In this document: piece by piece, positions 2,753 to 11,070 of the stretch
Layout: each line of letters begins with the position of its first letter
How positions within the stretch are numbered: the stretch's first letter is position 1
From: Chlorella sorokiniana
Lineage: Eukaryota > Chlorophyta > Trebouxiophyceae > Chlorellales > Chlorellaceae
Assembly (NCBI GenBank): GCA_025917655.1
Contig: CP084612.1
Location: forward strand, 1,860,001-1,924,000
Direction: 5' to 3'
Length of the DNA: 64,000 bases
Position numbers and translations under genes: made by a program
The notes under the pieces: generated by a model
Seen by the model: only the letters and a program-made list of their open reading frames with translations
Told to the model about the DNA's origin: nothing
Database searches by the model: none

Positions 2753-5700
2753 TCATGCGGCGTGCTGCTGCACGAGGCGGCACAGCTCCTCGTGGGTGCG
2801 CCACGTGAACACCTGGGCAGCCACGGGCCGCACCGCCGCCGCCGCCGCCGCCCGCCCCCGCCGCCGCCGCCGCCGCGGAACGTTCGGCGACGAGGCGCTC
2901 CAGCGAGTGGCCGGCGCGGGCGAGCAGCACGTCGTTGGGGCCCAGCCGCAGCGCGGGCACAGGTCGTTGGCGCCGTCGCCGCAGTAGACCACCTTGTGGG
3001 CGCGGCCTGGGGCGGCGGCGGCGCGGAGCGCCGCCAGCTCGGCGCCCTTGCACAGGTTGGCGGGGCAGAGGGGGCAGGCGTGGGGGCCGCTGGCCGCGGC
3101 GTTGTGCCGCGGCGCGACCACCAGGCGGTGGCTGACGCCCGACGGCGGCTTGCCGCTGCCGCCGCCGCTGCTGCCGCCGCTGCTCATCGACGCCAGGGAG
3201 GAGGAGGAGGAGGAGCGGAAGAACGACCAGCCCGAGCCAAAGGCGGAGGAGGAGGCGGCCCGGGACGCCCGCGGCGTCTGCGGCTCCTCCACTTCCTCTC
3301 CCCCGGGCGGCGCTGGCCGGTGCCGCCGCGGCGCGCGCTCAAAGGCTGCCGGGTTGGTGATGATGCGGCGGACGAGGGTGTTGAGGCGGGCGCCCGTCAG
3401 GATGTGGCCAATGAACACAGAGTTGCAGTCGGACAGCACGACGGTTTCGATGCCACGCCGCGCAGCCCACTGCAAGGGGGTAGAGCGGGCACAGCGGGAA
3501 GTTTGATGCAATGGGCACAGAGGGAAGGGAAGGTGCCAAGCGTGCCCTGGGGGGGGGGCGCACGGGCGGGCGGCGGCAGCGGGGGCTGAAAAGCCAGGCA
3601 GCAGCCGGCCGGCCAGGCAGAGGCCCGGCCCCGCGGCGGCAAGCGTGCAGGCGGGGCTGGCGCCAGTCGGGCCCACCTGCAGCATGCGCTGGGTGGCCAG
3701 CGGCACCTCCCGCCCCATCTCCCGCAGGCACGACACCAGGCGGTCGCGCGACACGCCGCGCCGCTGCATCTCGCTCAGCACCCTGTGGATTGTTTTTGGG
3801 GGTGGGGTGGCGGGCAGGGGTGAGGGAGTTTGTGTGCGTGCGTGGGTGGGGTGGCGGCGCTCAGGCTGCCCCCTCCCCTCCCCCAGCTGCCGCCCCCAGC
3901 CCTGGCTGCATGCACCCGCCGCCTCACGTGTTGGTGACGGGCACAAAGTTGGCGGGCATCTGCAGGCTAGACAGCAGCGAGGTGAGCTCGGGGGCCAGCT
4001 CGTCGCACAGCCGCTCGCCTGCAGGGGTGTGGGTGGGTGGAGGTGAGTGGGCGTCTGTGCGTGTGTGGTTCAGGCCGAGGGGCGGGCGTTCTGGGCGATA
4101 AGCGGGCAGCGCAGGAAGCGGCCTCACCGGCATCATAGTCGATGAGAGTGCGGTCAAAGTCGCAGACCAGCAGGGTGCCCGTGTAAGGGCTCTGCCGCAG
4201 CACCTCCGCCGCGCACGCGTCGGCGGGCGGCTGGGGCAGGGCGGCTCCCAGCGGCGCCGACAGCGCCGGCCTCGCGGCGGCAGCCAGGGCGGGCATCGAG
4301 GCGTTGCGGTGCGCGCCGCCCGCCGCGCGCGGCGGCGGCGCCAGCCCCTGCGCCGCAAACCACTTGTGCATGTTGAAGCGGCGGGCGAGCGGCGCCGCCA
4401 CGTCGCCGCAGCCCGCCAGAGACTCCAGCAGCGGCGCCACCGCCTCGGGCAGCATGCGGTCGTCGACGTCGCCGCGGAACTGCAGCACCGGCACCCCGTG
4501 GTCCGGCTGGCGGAAGAAGGCCAGCGGGGTGTCGTCCACCAGCACGCAGCGGGACAGGTCGCGACCCAGGCGGGACAGGTCCTGCGGTACAGGGGTGGGG
4601 TGGGGTGGGGTGTGTGGCATGGTGGGTGGTCGTGTGTGTGTGTGTGGTGGGTGGGTGGGTGGGTGGGTCGCATGATGAATGGGACAGGGTCCTCAAGCCA
4701 GAAGAAGAGATGTGGGTGGCGAAGGTGAAATTAAACTTGTCACTTTGGCAGCAGACTGGGCGGGTACGCCGGAAGAGGCACAGGGCACCAGGCTGTCCCT
4801 GTGCAGCTGCGCCAGCAGGCAGCCGCCGCAGGGAACCGTGCATCAAGCAGGCTGCTTCGCAGCGCGCCTTGATGAAAAAACAAAAAAAAATAACAAAAGC
4901 GCACCTTGATGCAGGGGTAGACGTCCTCGGCCACGGTGGCGGGGCGGTAGAGGCGGTGGTGGAAGGCGCCCGGGTAGCGCGCCTCTATCGCGTCGCAGAT
5001 GGGGGCCGCATAGTCCTCCAGCCCAGCCGTGAACAGGACCACCTGCCGATTGGGGGGGGTTGCATTGTTGCACGAGTGAGGTTGGCCGGCCAGGGAGCAA
5101 GCAGGAGGCAGGCGGGGGGGGCGGGGCTAGGAGCTGAGCTGGAAGGTGGCACGGCAGGCAGAGCAAGCACGGCACAGCCAACAGCGGCTGAGTGCAGTCC
5201 GCCCCCTCCACCCAGCCCCCTGCCCTTCATTTACGCGGAGCCTTCTGAAACGCCAGCCCTGGCGGGCAGCCCACCTCTGCAAAGGCGGCCACGCGCTGCA
5301 GGAACTCCCCCAGCCCAGGGCGCTCCACCACAAACACGCCCCCGGGTTGAGCTTGCCGCCGCGCCCCACCACGTACGACACTGGGGGGGCGGGCACGGGG
5401 GCGGGCAGGGGGTGAGCGGCAGGGGTACATTTAAGCGAGGCGAGTGCCGAGGCGTGGGGTGCAGCGTGCAGCGAGGGCGGGGGAAGGGTCCGAGGGGCTG
5501 TGAGAGGAAGGGGGTCGGCTGACGCAACGGAGAAAGGCGGGGAGCGAGGCAGGGAGCGGAGATGCATGCGCGGCTGCCGGCGGCGACGGGCACCCGCGCA
5601 CCTGCGCTGGGCGGCAGCAGCGGCGCGCGCTTGGGGGTGAAGGTGGTGACCAGAGTCCCGTCCAGGTCCAGGCAGACCACCAGGCGCCCCGCATGCTCCG

Positions 5701-7712
5701 CGCGCTGCGGCGGCAGCAGCGGCGGCGCCCCCGGCAAAGGGCGAGTCGGGGGGGCCACCAGCACCACCTCGGGCTGTACGCAGCGGTACCCCGCCCCCTG
5801 CTGCCCCCTTGCTGCCGCTCCTCCTGCTCCTCTTGCTGCTGCGTCGAGGCTGCCGCAGCGGCCGCGGGCTGCACCGACCGCCCCTGGGAAGCCGCCTCCT
5901 CCTCCTCCTCCTCCTCCTCCTCGTCCGTAGCGGCAGCCAGACTGGAGTCCAGCAGCTCGCTGGCGGCCGCCAGGCTGGTGCCCGGGGCCCGCACGTCCAC
6001 CGCCATGGCCTCCGCCTCCGCTGCTTCCGCAGCCGCGGCTGCCGCAGCGCTGCTGCGGCCAATGGGGATGGGCGCGCTGGCGGCCTTGGCCTTGCTGCTG
6101 CCGGGCTGCGGCGCGGCTGCCGCCGCGACGTTTTTCACGTCGCGCAGCTGCTGGCGCTCCAGCTTCTGGAGGAAAGCGTCCAGGTGGGGGTCCACCTGCA
6201 GGCGGTCCAGGTTGAGCAGCTGCGCGCGGCGGCACACCGCGCAGTCAAACGTGGCGCACTCCTCCGCCGCATCTTCATCAGCCGCATCCAGAGCCGCCTC
6301 CTGCCCCTGCTGCATGGCCAGAGGTGGCTGCTGCTGCTCCTGCTGCACGGCCTGCCCGTGCTGCTGCTCCTGCTGCTGTGTTGCTGACGCGCTGGTGCCG
6401 CCCTGCAGAGCCGCCTCGGCCAGCGCCGCTCCTTTGGCCGCACCCGGCTTGGCGCCCGGGTGGCCGTCGCCGCCGCCGCGTGCCGCCGCAGCGCAGTGCG
6501 CCAGCAGGCAGGCCCAGCAGTAGCGGTGGGCGCAGGTGAGCAGCACGGGGGAACGCAGCAGGTCGAGGCAGATGGGGCAGCGATACTCCGCCAGCAGCTC
6601 CTCAGCGGCAGGACGCTGCGGCGCCAGCTCCTGCGCAGGCGTCAAAAGGGGGAGGGGGTGGGGGCGCTCATAACGTGCGTTGCGCCTCCCTCCTGGGGCG
6701 CAGCAGGTGGGTCCAGCCGGGACTTTCGCTGCGCAGCCCTGCACGCTGCAGCAGGCAGCACTGCCCTGCAACCGCTGCAGCTGGCAGGGCGCCAGCTGGC
6801 GGCGCAGCGCTCTCCCGCGCTGATGGTCGGTGCTGCATGCCTCGTGTCGCGCAGGGCGCCCCTCCCCCACAGCTCGCACCTGTTCCAGTATCTCGGCCTG
6901 TGTGGCCAGCGCCGCCAGCGTGGGGCTGGTGAAGAAGCGCTGCTGCGAGAGCACGGCGACGGCGCGGAGGGGGCACGGCGGCGCCGCCGCACGCGGCGCG
7001 CAGGTGCCTGTTGCGCTTCTTGGCCGCCTTGACCACCGCGTAATAGTTGAGCACGGCGTACTTGCGCAGATCCTGAATCTCGGAGCGCAGCGCGGACAGC
7101 GCGGCCGCGCTGTGCGCGCTGTGCGCCAGGCCCGCCACTGCAGCCGCCAGCTCCTCCTCCTTCTCCACGTAAAAGGCTGCAACCTTTTGCAGCTCCAGCC
7201 GCAGCACGGCCTCGAAGCGCGAGCCCCGCGCGTCTGCAGGCCGCGATGACGTCAGAAACGGGAAGGGCGCAGGTGGGCCGCCAGAGGGGCACAGGTTGGG
7301 CATGCAGGCGGAGCTGCCAGGGCGCCCCATCAGCTTCCGAGCCCAAGCCCCCCCCATCTCAGCATACCTTTGGCGGCAACGTCCTGCTTGATGGCATGCT
7401 TCAACTGCTTATAGTCGATGTAGCTGGCAGCCCAGCGGGTGCGCGAGGCCTCGCGCAGCAGGCGCTTGCCGAACTGAAGTGTGCGTGCGTGGGGGGTGGG
7501 GGTGGGTGGGGGGACGAGGGCGATCAGAGCCAAGAGGCAGCCGAGGGCGGCAGCGATGCGGATGGACTAGCACTCAAGCATGCCAGCACTCTAATCTGCG
7601 CTAGAATGGCATCAAATCAAGCCCTTGTGCGAAATTTTGCAGTAGGAACTGGCGGCTGCGGAATATGCTGAACGTCAGCCGCCGCCAACAGCGGCAGCCT
7701 GCTCGCCTTCAT
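2753..7712 (-). CDS. SPX-RING protein fused to FCP1-like and PHOSPHO/PS2-like HAD phosphatases
   Basis: Exons on the minus strand: 7707-7712 (Met-Lys), 7368-7473, 6880-7233, 5601-6630, 5275-5380, 4904-5042, 4128-4581, 3928-4018, 3677-3782, 2753-3469. Domains in order: SPX (FGKRLLREA, YIDYKQLK, LNYYAVVKAAKKRN), the inositol-pyrophosphate sensor of phosphate status; RING (CPICLDLL...CAHRYCWAC...CAVC), as in NLA-type E3 ligases; a Glu-rich linker; an FCP1/SCP-type HAD domain (CLDLDGTLV, LFTAGLEDYA, CVLVDDTPLAF); then a PHOSPHO-type HAD domain (CDFDRTLIDYD, VVLSDCNSVFI, ACPLCPANLCKG, CGDGANDLCP). Plant PS2/PECP1 phosphatases, induced by phosphate starvation, belong to the last family. One exon (4128-4581) encodes the end of FCP1 and the start of PHOSPHO, so that fusion is firm. 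RING and FCP1 lie on one unspliced exon but in frames one base apart near 5795. Further one-base frame jumps near 6970 and 2955 look like sequence errors. The C-terminus is RLVQQHAA. Confidence 0.72.
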
Positions 7713-8221
7713 TGCGCCTCCAGCAGCGGCGCTTGCTCGTCAATGTCTTCAAGCAGCTTCAACCAGCAAGCAGAGGGAGGAGCACGTGGCTGTGAACGCA
7801 TACGCCCCGCGCAGGCAAGGTGGCCGGCAGACAAGGAGGCCGGGCAGGCCACGCAGCGCATCGCAAATGAGTGTGTGCCATTGTAACCTACATTGAGCGC
7901 GGCCAAGTTGCAGCGCGGCCCGATCAGGTCAGCCGCCAAAGGTATACCGCAAGTAGGTTGGTTGGGCTGCCCAAGGAATCGAGACTGAGCAAAAGCAATC
8001 ACGACAGCATGTTCAAGTCAGCGTGAGACATGCCTCAGCGTCCGGCATCATTAAAAGCATCTCCTTGAAGCGGTACACTCAGACAGAAGGAGGTACACTG
8101 TCTTCTAAATGCTTAACTGGGAGACACTCTGCATGGGCTCCCATGCAGCCATATCGCTTGTGACATGTTACGCACGTCATAGAGACCCGCACACAGCCTC
8201 GCGGCCAACCTTGCAGGGACC
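7713..8221. promoter_or_regulatory. Divergent promoter region
   Basis: About 510 bp between the starts of the SPX-RING-phosphatase gene (minus) and the PAN-cyclophilin gene (plus). It is less GC-rich than the flanking coding sequence. It has no exon-like open frame with conserved sequence. I cannot identify a specific element, such as a phosphate-response motif, with confidence. Confidence 0.5.
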
Positions 8222-11070
8222 ATGGCGACGGTGCCCGCTCGAAATAAGCGAACGCGCAGTGGTGCAAGATTCGGGCGCCGCTTTCTATCGATCGCTGTCA
8301 CGGCTTTCGTCGGCGTCAACTTGTATCTTGTGCTGCGGGGCTCGGTCCACGCGCCTCCGCAGCTATCTGATGCCCTTACAACCGGAGAAGGATCGCACAG
8401 GTGCGTTGCCGGTGAAGCCTCTTCTGGGGCAGCCCGCCGCTGCCGCCGCTGCTGCCGTGGTTCTGCCGCCGCTGCCTCACCGACAGCCGCTCCCTGCTGA
8501 ACCTTCCTGTCAGGTACAAACAAATCGAGACAGCCGCAGACATTGCGCTAGCAGACCAGGCGACTACGCTGGCAGCAGGGGCTGGCGAGCAGCAGCAGCA
8601 GCAGCACGAGCAGCAGCAGCAGCAAGAGCAGCAGCAGCAAGAGGGGCAGGCAGGCGGCGGCGGCGAGCAGTGCCACTCCGAGGAGAACGCCGAATACGAC
8701 GCCGAGAAAGCCATCGTGTGGGGGAGCACAACCTGAAGGACAGCGCGGCAGAGTGCTGCGCGTCGTGCCAGGCGGAAGCGCCGCGGTGCAACGTCTGGGT
8801 GTACTGCGGCCGTCCTGAAGGCTGCTTCTCGGGCGCAAGCACAAGGAGTGCTGGCTGAAGCATACCGACCACCTGGACCCAGCCAAACCGCGCGGCAAGC
8901 GCAGCCCAGGTGGGGACCCAGCCTGCAGCGGGCGCCCTTCTTCAACCTCTCGCTCACAGTCCCCGGGCGCGCTCGTGCTGCCTGCTTGCCAGCGCCTCCT
9001 CTCCCTTCCGGCTATGGTGTGCATGCCCCACGCTCCGTCCACTTCACAAAGCGTCCATCCCTGTATCGCTGCCCCGCCCCCAGACCACGGCTGGACGTCG
9101 GGGCTGTCTACTCCCCGGAGGAGCGGCAGGCAGCGCTGGATCGGGCGCAGGCAGCGCAGGACCAGGAACAGCAATACCTGGACCGACTGCGCGCCGACGA
9201 GCGGCTGCCGGTGCGGGGCTCGCCGCCCGTGCGGTTGCGGCGCCGTCCCAACAGCTGCTGCTTGGGTCACCCCTGCGAATGGAACTTGGACGGCCTGGGT
9301 GGCGAGGGCTGCGGCTGCCTGCGCGTCGCCCTGGGCCATCCATTCAGCTTCGCTGCTTGCAGTGTAATGCTTTAAAAAAGGCACCCGTCATTTATTTTTA
9401 CTGCTTCCTCCCCCCCACACACACACAGATGGTGTTCCTGGATGTCGCCATCAAGGGGCAGGCGGTTGGGCGCATCGAAATGGTGCTGTTCACAGATGTC
9501 AGCGCGCGCGGCGGAGAACTTCAGGCGAGACGGGGAGCTTGTGGGGTGGAGATGCGAGTGTGGGAGGCTCAAGCCAAGGCCAGCCGCTGTCCCGGCCAGC
9601 GGCTGCCGTGCCTGTGTGGCTGCGCGATCCTTGCAGTGCTCCGTCCTGCCAGCCCTCTCCGCAGCTGACCCTCCTTGCTGGGCCCGCCCCGGGACCCCCT
9701 TCCCGGCTGGCCGGCCTTCGCTGCCTGGCCTGCTGAGCTGCCCGCTCCCACCCCGCCCCTCATCGCCCCTGCACCGCGTTCCGGGCCCCCGCAGGCAGCT
9801 GTGCACGGGGGAGGCGGGCGCCGTGCCGGACGAGCCGGGCGGGAGGGCAGCGGGCGCCCCGCCACCTCAAGGGCGCCTTCTTCTACCGCATCATCGACCA
9901 GTTCATCGATCAGGCGGGGGTGGAGACGGAGTCGGTGTTCGGGGGCAGGTGCGCCCCGCTGCAACATTGCTAGCGCTGCTGCCCCTCATGCGGGTTGGTC
10001 GGGTGACGGCGGCGCAGCTCCAGCCGCAGCTGCCGCTCTTGGCCTGCGGGGCGTAGCGCTGCTGGGCAGGCCTGGCTGCCCGCGAGTTGCAGCGAGCCGG
10101 GGGTGGGCAGGTGTTTTGGGGGGCAGGCGGGTGGTTGCTGGCCTGGGCTCATGGGAATGGCGGTGACGTTTTGGGTGGAAGGTGCCGGAGGGGCTCGGGA
10201 GGCGAGCAGGAATATGCTGCGGTGTGCACCGCTGGCGTGAATGCATGCATTGCTGCACACGAGGGGGCCCAACCTCATTCCAGACCACGCCCTCAACCTC
10301 CCCGCTGCAGTTCAAGGATGATCCCGGCGGCCTCCAGCTGAAGCACGAGCACAAGGGCCTGCTGTCCATGGTGCGCGGCTGCAGGCGACGATTGCACACT
10401 TTGTCCTGCTGAACATCGCACACGCCCTCGCTGCCCCGCACCCGTTCCGCCCAGCCTGCCCTGCGCGCGCCGCAGCGCGCGTTTGCTTGTGCCCAGTCGA
10501 CCCGCCTGCGCCTGGCCCCCGCCCTTTGCCCCGCCCCGCCGCCGCCGCAGGCCAACATGGGTCACGACACCAACACCGCCCACTTCTCGATCATGATGGG
10601 CCCAGCCCACCACCTGGACGGCGACTACACCATCTTTGGTGGGTGTGGGGGCGCGCCGCCGGCCGCGGCCCCCGCCTTGCCTGGTGCCTGGTGTCAGCTG
10701 CGGGGCTCGCGCGTCGCTGAGGGGGGCTGCTGTGGGGTGGGCGGGGACGGGCTGCTGCCTGGCACCTCTTGCGCCCGCCCTGGCGGACTCAAAGATGCGG
10801 ATGCGTGCCAACCTGCGCTTACCCCCAAGTTGCTGCTTCTTGCTGAGCTACAACCACACCGCCCACGCACTCTGGCCCCCCTCCCTCCCTGCCTGCCACC
10901 GACACACAGGCCAAGTGGTGTCTGGATTTGACGTCGTTGATGCGATCAACGCCCTGTCCCGCGGCAAGAAGGACAACACCGCAACGGCAGAGGACGGAGC
11001 GCAGATAGTGGACTCTGGGCAGCTTCGGAAAGGCACCCTGGAGCCAGATCTGGCGCTCGGCCTGCAGTGA
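8222..11070 (+). CDS. Membrane-anchored PAN-cyclophilin (peptidyl-prolyl isomerase-like)
   Basis: Exons: 8222-8400, 8514-8909, 9084 to about 9300, 9430-9521, about 9795-9950, about 10313-10371, about 10553-10638, 10910-11070. A basic N-terminus is followed by one hydrophobic segment (FLSIAVTAFVGVNLYLVL, about residues 21-38), suggesting a signal anchor. Next come a Gln-rich stretch, then an algal PAN-type Cys module (CCASCQAEAPRCNVWVYCG...ECWLKHTDHLDP). A cyclophilin domain follows: VFLDVAIKGQAVGRIEM, FFYRIIDQFIDQAG, LLSMANMGHDTN, HLDGDYTIFGQVVSGFDVV. Against human CypA, Arg55, Phe60 and Gln63 are kept. Gln111, Phe113, Trp121 and His126 are replaced by His, Ser, His and Tyr, so isomerase activity and cyclosporin binding may be weak. 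Frame slips near 8712, 8828, 9508 and 9845 interrupt otherwise clear family sequence. Probable location: secretory pathway. Confidence 0.75.

Follow-up and report, generated by a model that had tools for sequence, protein, structure and literature searches.

A predicted single gene of Chlorella sorokiniana joins SPX, RING, NIF and PHOSPHO-type domains in one chain

Does one gene of Chlorella sorokiniana encode a phosphate-sensing SPX domain, a RING finger and two HAD phosphatase domains in a single chain, and what would such a protein do? An earlier note had read this arrangement from a window of 64,000 nucleotides (the whole stretch analyzed here; contig CP084612.1, positions 1,860,001 to 1,924,000). 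By exon translations and Pfam, we found ten exons on the minus strand from 7712 to 2753 that make up one gene, in the order SPX-RING-NIF-PHOSPHO. The gene starts with ATGAAG at 7712 and its stop codon lies at 2755-2753, so that the earlier note was right about location, strand, domain order and end points. Intron 1 has a GC donor (ATGAAG/GCGAGC), and the other eight introns are GT-AG. The features are as follows.

7707-7712, minus strand: exon 1, ATGAAG (Met-Lys), then the GC donor; exons 1 and 2 together read MKFGKRL
7661-7668, plus strand: P1BS-type (GNATATNC) element GAATATGC in intron 1 (weak evidence)
7368-7473, minus strand: exon 2, start of SPX (FGKRLLREASRTRWAASYIDYKQLKHAIK) (exon translation, Pfam)
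6880-7233, minus strand: exon 3, remainder of SPX, including the KAAKK cluster; frame interrupted at about 6990-6970 (translation, Pfam, relatives)
5602-6630, minus strand: exon 4, RING (two halves with a long loop), then a linker, then the start of NIF, CLDLDGTLV
5275-5381, minus strand: exon 5, NIF; frame break at about 5349-5332 within a G run (translation, Pfam)
4905-5042, minus strand: exon 6, NIF (VVLFTAGLEDYAAP) (translation, Pfam)
4128-4581, minus strand: exon 7, C terminus of NIF (VLVDDTP), linker and start of PHOSPHO (CDFDRTLID), frame unbroken
3928-4018, minus strand: exon 8, PHOSPHO (translation, Pfam)
3677-3782, minus strand: exon 9, PHOSPHO (translation, Pfam)
2753-3469, minus strand: exon 10, PHOSPHO (SDCN, CKG, GDGANDLC) through the stop; frame breaks at about 2955 and 2890-2820

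The start MKFGKRL is the usual one in the family (M in 73 of 77 relatives, K in 66 of 75, F in 67 of 72). To score the domains, we bridged the frame breaks to join the exon translations into a model of 1023 residues, and searched it with Pfam. SPX scored 29.2 bits, just over its cut-off of 27.8; C3HC4-type RING families reached up to 32.6 bits, NIF 121.4 bits and Put_Phosphatase 126.4 bits. With splice joins only, exons 7 to 10 up to the break at about 2955 still matched, in a single frame, NIF at 45.0 bits (profile positions 100-159) and Put_Phosphatase at 98.7 bits. Exon 7 is open and needs no repair, and the claim that the two phosphatase domains meet within a single exon therefore holds. 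Profile scans of the whole genome recovered the locus for NIF (45.9 bits) and for Put_Phosphatase (71.7 bits, neighbors in frame included). The whole-genome SPX scan returned two other places and not this locus; the scan goes exon by exon, and SPX is cut here by introns and a frame break. A Micractinium protein aligned to the whole 1023-residue model with 57% identity. Therefore, the four-domain gene is beyond chance.

The assembled frame is interrupted five times, at about 6990, 5800, 5345, 2955 and 2860, and given these breaks the exact protein of this copy is a predicted sequence. The same defect was seen elsewhere: a neighboring cyclophilin gene also shifts frame within one stretch, and a separate PHOSPHO gene, located on contig 4, is scattered across several frames. 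This suggests that the assembly adds or drops bases, and assembly error is the likelier cause of the breaks than decay. Five breaks in one locus could also mark a decaying pseudogene in C. sorokiniana; however, all four domains retain their key residues and the two other genes break frame too, and we consider decay highly improbable. The break near 5800 (about 5810-5785) falls between RING and NIF, in the acidic, Ala/Gln-rich linker of exon 4. It could thus mark a border between two adjoining genes that had been merged in the reading, either SPX-RING plus NIF-PHOSPHO or SPX-RING-NIF plus PHOSPHO. Some databases do hold split models, and by motif 8 of 181 related proteins are NIF-PHOSPHO only. 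However, the split points vary between pairs and several fall within the NIF domain, which fits faulty models. In Chlorella variabilis the split models lie on two equal-sized, consecutively numbered contigs; together they cover the model with a gap of 17 residues. The linker of the present gene is homologous to that of C. variabilis on either side of the break near 5800. Moreover, 77 proteins are unbroken, including P0052 (861 aa, from a Tetraselmis transcriptome source) and P0078 (767 aa, a TRINITY transcript). Two merged genes are thus the least probable reading of all, and the claim of one gene is supported.

The earlier note had proposed a search of related algae for the same domain order, and had held that halves always found as separate loci would speak against one gene. 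Among the 181 relatives kept, all four parts were present in 77, each a continuous protein and each in the order SPX-RING-NIF-PHOSPHO (77/77); at least 2 of these come from transcriptome sources. The halves are therefore not always separate loci. The four-part protein occurs in many green algae, and the key residues of SPX, RING and NIF are nearly invariant among the relatives. Of the 181, 16 were SPX-RING-NIF without PHOSPHO motifs, a count made by motif that includes several split or truncated models and one protein, P0079, that still has a PHOSPHO profile match. The earlier note also knew of no described protein with this order. We found no publication describing an SPX-RING-NIF-PHOSPHO protein among the literature matches listed, but the arrangement is not unique to this locus, since at least 77 database proteins share it.

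Both N-terminal domains were as claimed. SPX is identified by its profile match and predicted fold, and this copy has the inositol pyrophosphate residues of both YxxxK and the KxxKK cluster; KxxKK is kept in 83 of 83 relatives, and the final residue of the YxxxKxxxK motif is His here. The RING that follows is of the C3HC4 type and complete, with eight ligands in order. This is the layout of the SPX-RING ligases NLA/BAH1 and Pqr1/Spx1, and ubiquitination gated by phosphate status would be expected here by analogy with them. A ligase of the NLA/Pqr1 type would carry no further catalytic domain after the RING, whereas NIF and PHOSPHO follow it here, and we therefore filed the protein as an SPX-RING variant and not as NLA. 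Pqr1/Spx1, at 470 aa, is described as having no domains beyond SPX and RING, whereas the algal protein adds two HAD domains in the same chain. The algal RING also differs from that of NLA and Pqr1 in its long loop, whose median length over 100 relatives is 57 residues. The predicted structure had SPX-like and SCP-like folds at a pTM of 0.55; thus, the arrangement of the domains and any gating contact are modeled without confidence.

The middle phosphatase belongs to the NIF family by its profile, its DxD nucleophile pair, its Lys and its Asp-Asp; DxD and K are kept in 90 of 90 relatives. The label FCP1 had to be dropped. By sequence and predicted fold, SCP1, a CTD small phosphatase, is the nearest match to the domain, with SCP2 likewise near, and 4/4 relatives scored far under the FCP1_euk cut-off (TIGR02250, 21.7-48.5 bits versus 135.25). 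With the Dullard/SCP-like model TIGR02251, one of the four relatives passed (141.5 versus 139.15) and the rest scored 111.4-136.3. The solved SCPs (CTDSP1/2) are separate small enzymes, whereas the algal domain is embedded behind SPX-RING; DLDETL of SCP1/SCP2 is replaced by DLDGTL, and LDNSP by VDDTP.

The C-terminal domain shares the PF06888 profile and the motifs DxDxT, SDxN, CPxNLCKG and GDGANDLC with PHOSPHO1, PHOSPHO2, PECP1 and PS2, and in this copy DxDxT, SDxN, CKG and GDGxND are intact. Each catalytic Asp is kept in 76-83 of 83-84 relatives. At least one catalytic residue is replaced in 7 of 84 aligned copies, with a gap there in 1 more. Together with the proteins that have no PHOSPHO motifs, this indicates that the domain is not essential everywhere. 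At the position of PHOSPHO1 Asp43 (nucleophile +11), this copy has Gly and no relative with letters there has Asp (0/84, in the aligned or the ungapped count); the aligned relatives (n=84) have G in 61, A in 12, C in 5 and other residues in six. Instead, the four-part family conserves the pattern DxDAGER, in which Asp is at position +9 and Glu at position +12. A separate PHOSPHO locus in the same genome retains the ENSD motif with the Asp43 equivalent. All four relatives scanned passed the MtnX-like HAD-IB model (TIGR01489, 83.1-90.2 bits versus 81.55; relatives only).

What, then, might the protein do? We somewhat favor a green-algal SPX-RING ligase similar to NLA and Pqr1, which inositol pyrophosphates would gate and which also contains an SCP-type protein phosphatase and an accessory PHOSPHO-type HAD. 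SPX would read inositol pyrophosphates as the signal of phosphate status and, in the manner of NLA and fission-yeast Pqr1/Spx1, would gate the RING finger. The SCP-type domain may strip phosphate from Ser/Thr of the RING's own clients, which would couple ubiquitination to phospho-editing on phosphate-response proteins (transporters or transcription machinery). The C-terminal HAD, lost in some relatives, would be accessory and would act as a hydrolase of some small phosphate ester, with phosphocholine an improbable substrate. Of the sensor-ligase-phosphatase logic proposed earlier, the single gene, the SPX lysines, the complete RING and the order thus stand, but the FCP1 type and phosphocholine release are not supported.

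It is also possible that the protein is a nuclear regulator that would tie phosphorylation of the RNA polymerase II CTD, and the termination of transcription, to the level of inositol pyrophosphates, the fission-yeast Spx1 axis in one protein. The closeness of NIF to SCP1/2 is consistent with this, but SCP-type enzymes also have other substrates. According to one fission-yeast report, loss of Spx1 cancels the derepression of Pho1 by Pol2 CTD mutations, and its authors propose that Spx1 carries IP8 signals to 3'-processing (PMC8749416). However, Pqr1, which is the same protein, is described as cytoplasmic and as targeting plasma-membrane transporters, and we regard the nuclear role as unlikely. 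A broader version for core chlorophytes, in which the SPX sensor would control the ligase and a Pol II CTD-type phosphatase in one chain and dephosphorylation together with ubiquitination would pass phosphate status on to the transcription machinery, is equally speculative; there, the terminal HAD would be a new DxDAGER subfamily with a phosphate ester as substrate or as sensor ligand. We similarly doubt that a phosphate sensor and ligase are joined here to an enzyme of the PECP1/PS2 type, which would hydrolyze phosphocholine or phosphoethanolamine to release phosphate during starvation, as the earlier note had it. PECP1 and PS2 are reported to be starvation-induced enzymes acting on those two esters (PMC6549246), and the Put_Phosphatase score, the intact motifs and the P1BS-type site in intron 1 agree with such a role; 1718 such sites occur in the 38.8 Mb genome, which gives an expectation of about 0.03 for 7474-7706 and 7713-8220 (741 bases together). 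However, a review states that mutation of Asp43 in PHOSPHO1 abolished activity on phosphocholine and lowered that on phosphoethanolamine (PMC9360546), and the equivalent residue is absent in 84/84 relatives and kept at the separate locus. The MtnX-like matches, and the relatives that lose PHOSPHO catalytic residues with NIF intact, also argue against it.

In the favored SPX-RING ligase with built-in phosphatase, a single polypeptide would sense phosphate, attach ubiquitin and remove phosphate groups from proteins. Such a protein makes testable how algae pass on inositol-pyrophosphate signals, and whether the SPX-RING to Pol2 CTD link of fission yeast extends beyond fungi. Other green-algal fusions likewise join SPX to an effector (SPX-VTC, SPX-SLC and SPX-Na_sulph_symp), but these concern transport or polyphosphate machinery, and SPX-RING-NIF-PHOSPHO is not among the fusions listed in that account (PMC8717665). 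Plant SPX proteins are divided into four classes in reviews, to which the present protein would add an algal class that is widely conserved and outside those listed (PMC13153306). In the same review, from 2026, the earliest SPX-RING protein is that of Volvox carteri (PMC13153306). By motif, two relatives from other Volvox species have all four parts, and the V. carteri protein may therefore be a four-part protein seen by its N-terminal half alone.

The gene that encodes SPX, RING, NIF (SCP-type phosphatase) and PHOSPHO (PHOSPHO-type HAD) domains is real and conserved. It lies on contig C10 (window C10:1860001-1924000) of a 38.8-Mb assembly of 15 contigs, and we placed its 10 exons by splice sites and homology.

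Four-domain gene and its exons (window positions)
7712-2753, minus: four-domain gene, ATGAAG at 7712 to TGA at 2755-2753
7712-7707, minus: exon 1
7473-7368, minus: exon 2
7233-6880, minus: exon 3
6630-5602, minus: exon 4
5381-5275, minus: exon 5
5042-4905, minus: exon 6
4581-4128, minus: exon 7
4018-3928, minus: exon 8
3782-3677, minus: exon 9
3469-2753, minus: exon 10

The splice donor of intron 1 is GC, and the remaining eight introns are GT-AG. Intron 1 also holds a P1BS-type site, GAATATGC, at 7661-7668; there are 1718 such sites genome-wide, versus 800 for the reversed pattern. The joined translation matched the Pfam profiles for SPX (29.2 bits), RING families (top score, 32.6 bits), NIF (121.4 bits) and Put_Phosphatase (126.4 bits). 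Genome scans with the NIF and Put_Phosphatase profiles both picked up this locus; the hits of the SPX scan were at two different places, with this locus not among them.

In the assembled sequence, the frame of the gene is broken near 6990, 5800, 5345, 2955 and 2860, which the earlier note did not mention. The break near 5800 sits within the RING-NIF linker, and homology to Chlorella variabilis runs on at both flanks. Two other genes bear on these breaks.

9430-10380, plus: cyclophilin-type (PF00160) gene, frame shifts within a short stretch
L011 1-1700 (C4:2697630-2700773), minus: stand-alone PHOSPHO-type gene on contig 4, carries DFDWSLIEENSD

In the cyclophilin gene, DVSAR and SARAAENFR overlap in the protein yet come from different frames, and the joined pieces scored 41.4 bits against PF00160 while two single pieces gave no score. 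We read this frame change as pointing to indel errors in the assembled sequence. Pieces of the contig 4 gene are also scattered across several frames, for which introns may partly account. Because both genes change frame too, we take most breaks in the four-domain gene to be assembly errors. Exons 7 to 10, joined at splice sites only and read to the 2955 break, matched both NIF (profile 100-159) and Put_Phosphatase. Therefore, the central NIF-PHOSPHO fusion, claimed in the earlier note, requires no frame correction and stands.

We then turned to relatives. A search with the full model returned 92 proteins, 90 of them family members; the top match, from Micractinium conductrix, was 57% identical across the full length of the model. 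An alignment search gave the best 120 of 133 matches and a NIF-PHOSPHO search the best 120 of 125; 181 distinct proteins were retained. Motifs of all four domains occurred in 77/181 among these matches, and the order SPX-RING-NIF-PHOSPHO was common to all 77. Sources named for the 77 include Micractinium, Trebouxia, Elliptochloris, Apatococcus, Myrmecia, Picochlorum (assigned from its JGI code), Volvox, Gonium, Chlamydomonas incerta, C. schloesseri, Haematococcus, Dunaliella, Raphidocelis, Tetraselmis, a pedinophyte and, as we read its JGI code, Ulva. In a 24-row tree, the Chlorella sorokiniana copy grouped with C. variabilis and Micractinium (100/99), the trebouxiophycean rows formed one group (100/99) and the chlorophycean rows another (97/85), Tetraselmis paired weakly with the pedinophyte, and one transcript sat on a long branch. 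The Scenedesmus member P0061 bears the database name PSR2, which may hint at a phosphate response.

The other 104/181 proteins carried partial motif sets; they include split models, short proteins and plain NIF or PHOSPHO proteins. Two C. variabilis models whose contigs are equally long, 137319 and 137320, cover model residues 1-649 and 667-1023, respectively. Other split pairs, likewise on equal-sized contigs, divide within the NIF domain. P0082, P0084 and P0085 are SPX-RING-NIF proteins that all stop at the same place after NIF, which may be genuine loss of the last domain. Among land plants, the NIF protein P0174 (Musa) shares 44% identity with the NIF-PHOSPHO query across 39% of it and may be a streptophyte equivalent of the NIF part.

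The architecture was undescribed among the matches listed in the literature searched; subscription journals fell mostly outside it, and an earlier description is possible. The accessible parts of PMC8717665, PMC13153306, PMC11528361, PMC8294586, PMC9360546, PMC8749416 and PMC6549246 do not describe it. In fission yeast, an SPX-RING protein holds down phosphate transporters via ubiquitination. It is also implicated in relaying IP8 signals to transcription termination, and inositol pyrophosphate toxicity requires both its inositol pyrophosphate site and its RING (PMC8749416). The algal protein builds on this chassis with an additional SCP-type phosphatase, and our verdict is a new variant of the SPX-RING kind, not found described in the literature searched. 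The domain anatomy could be read as a sensor, a ubiquitin writer, a protein-phosphate eraser and a small-molecule HAD, with writer and eraser perhaps coupled on shared clients. The earlier mechanism of sensor, ligase and phosphate-releasing enzyme was half right.

Key residues were well kept in relatives: SPX KxxKK in 83/83, RING ligands in 84/86 up to 85/85, NIF DxD in 90/90, and the first and second PHOSPHO catalytic Asp in 80/84 and 83/84. In PHOSPHO1, by the numbering of PMC9360546, the nucleophile is Asp32 and Asp43 follows 11 residues later. An Asp at this +11 position was found in 0/84 relatives, whether aligned or ungapped; conserved instead are Asp at +9 and Glu at +12 (80/84 each). 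The stand-alone gene on contig 4, in contrast, retains the Asp43 equivalent. At least one PHOSPHO catalytic residue is replaced in P0071, P0073, P0074, P0075, P0078, P0079 and P0080, and P0051 has an alignment gap there. In P0071, P0073, P0078 and P0079, the nucleophile and other PHOSPHO catalytic residues are replaced with NIF DxD intact, and from these replacements their PHOSPHO domains are possible pseudo-phosphatases.
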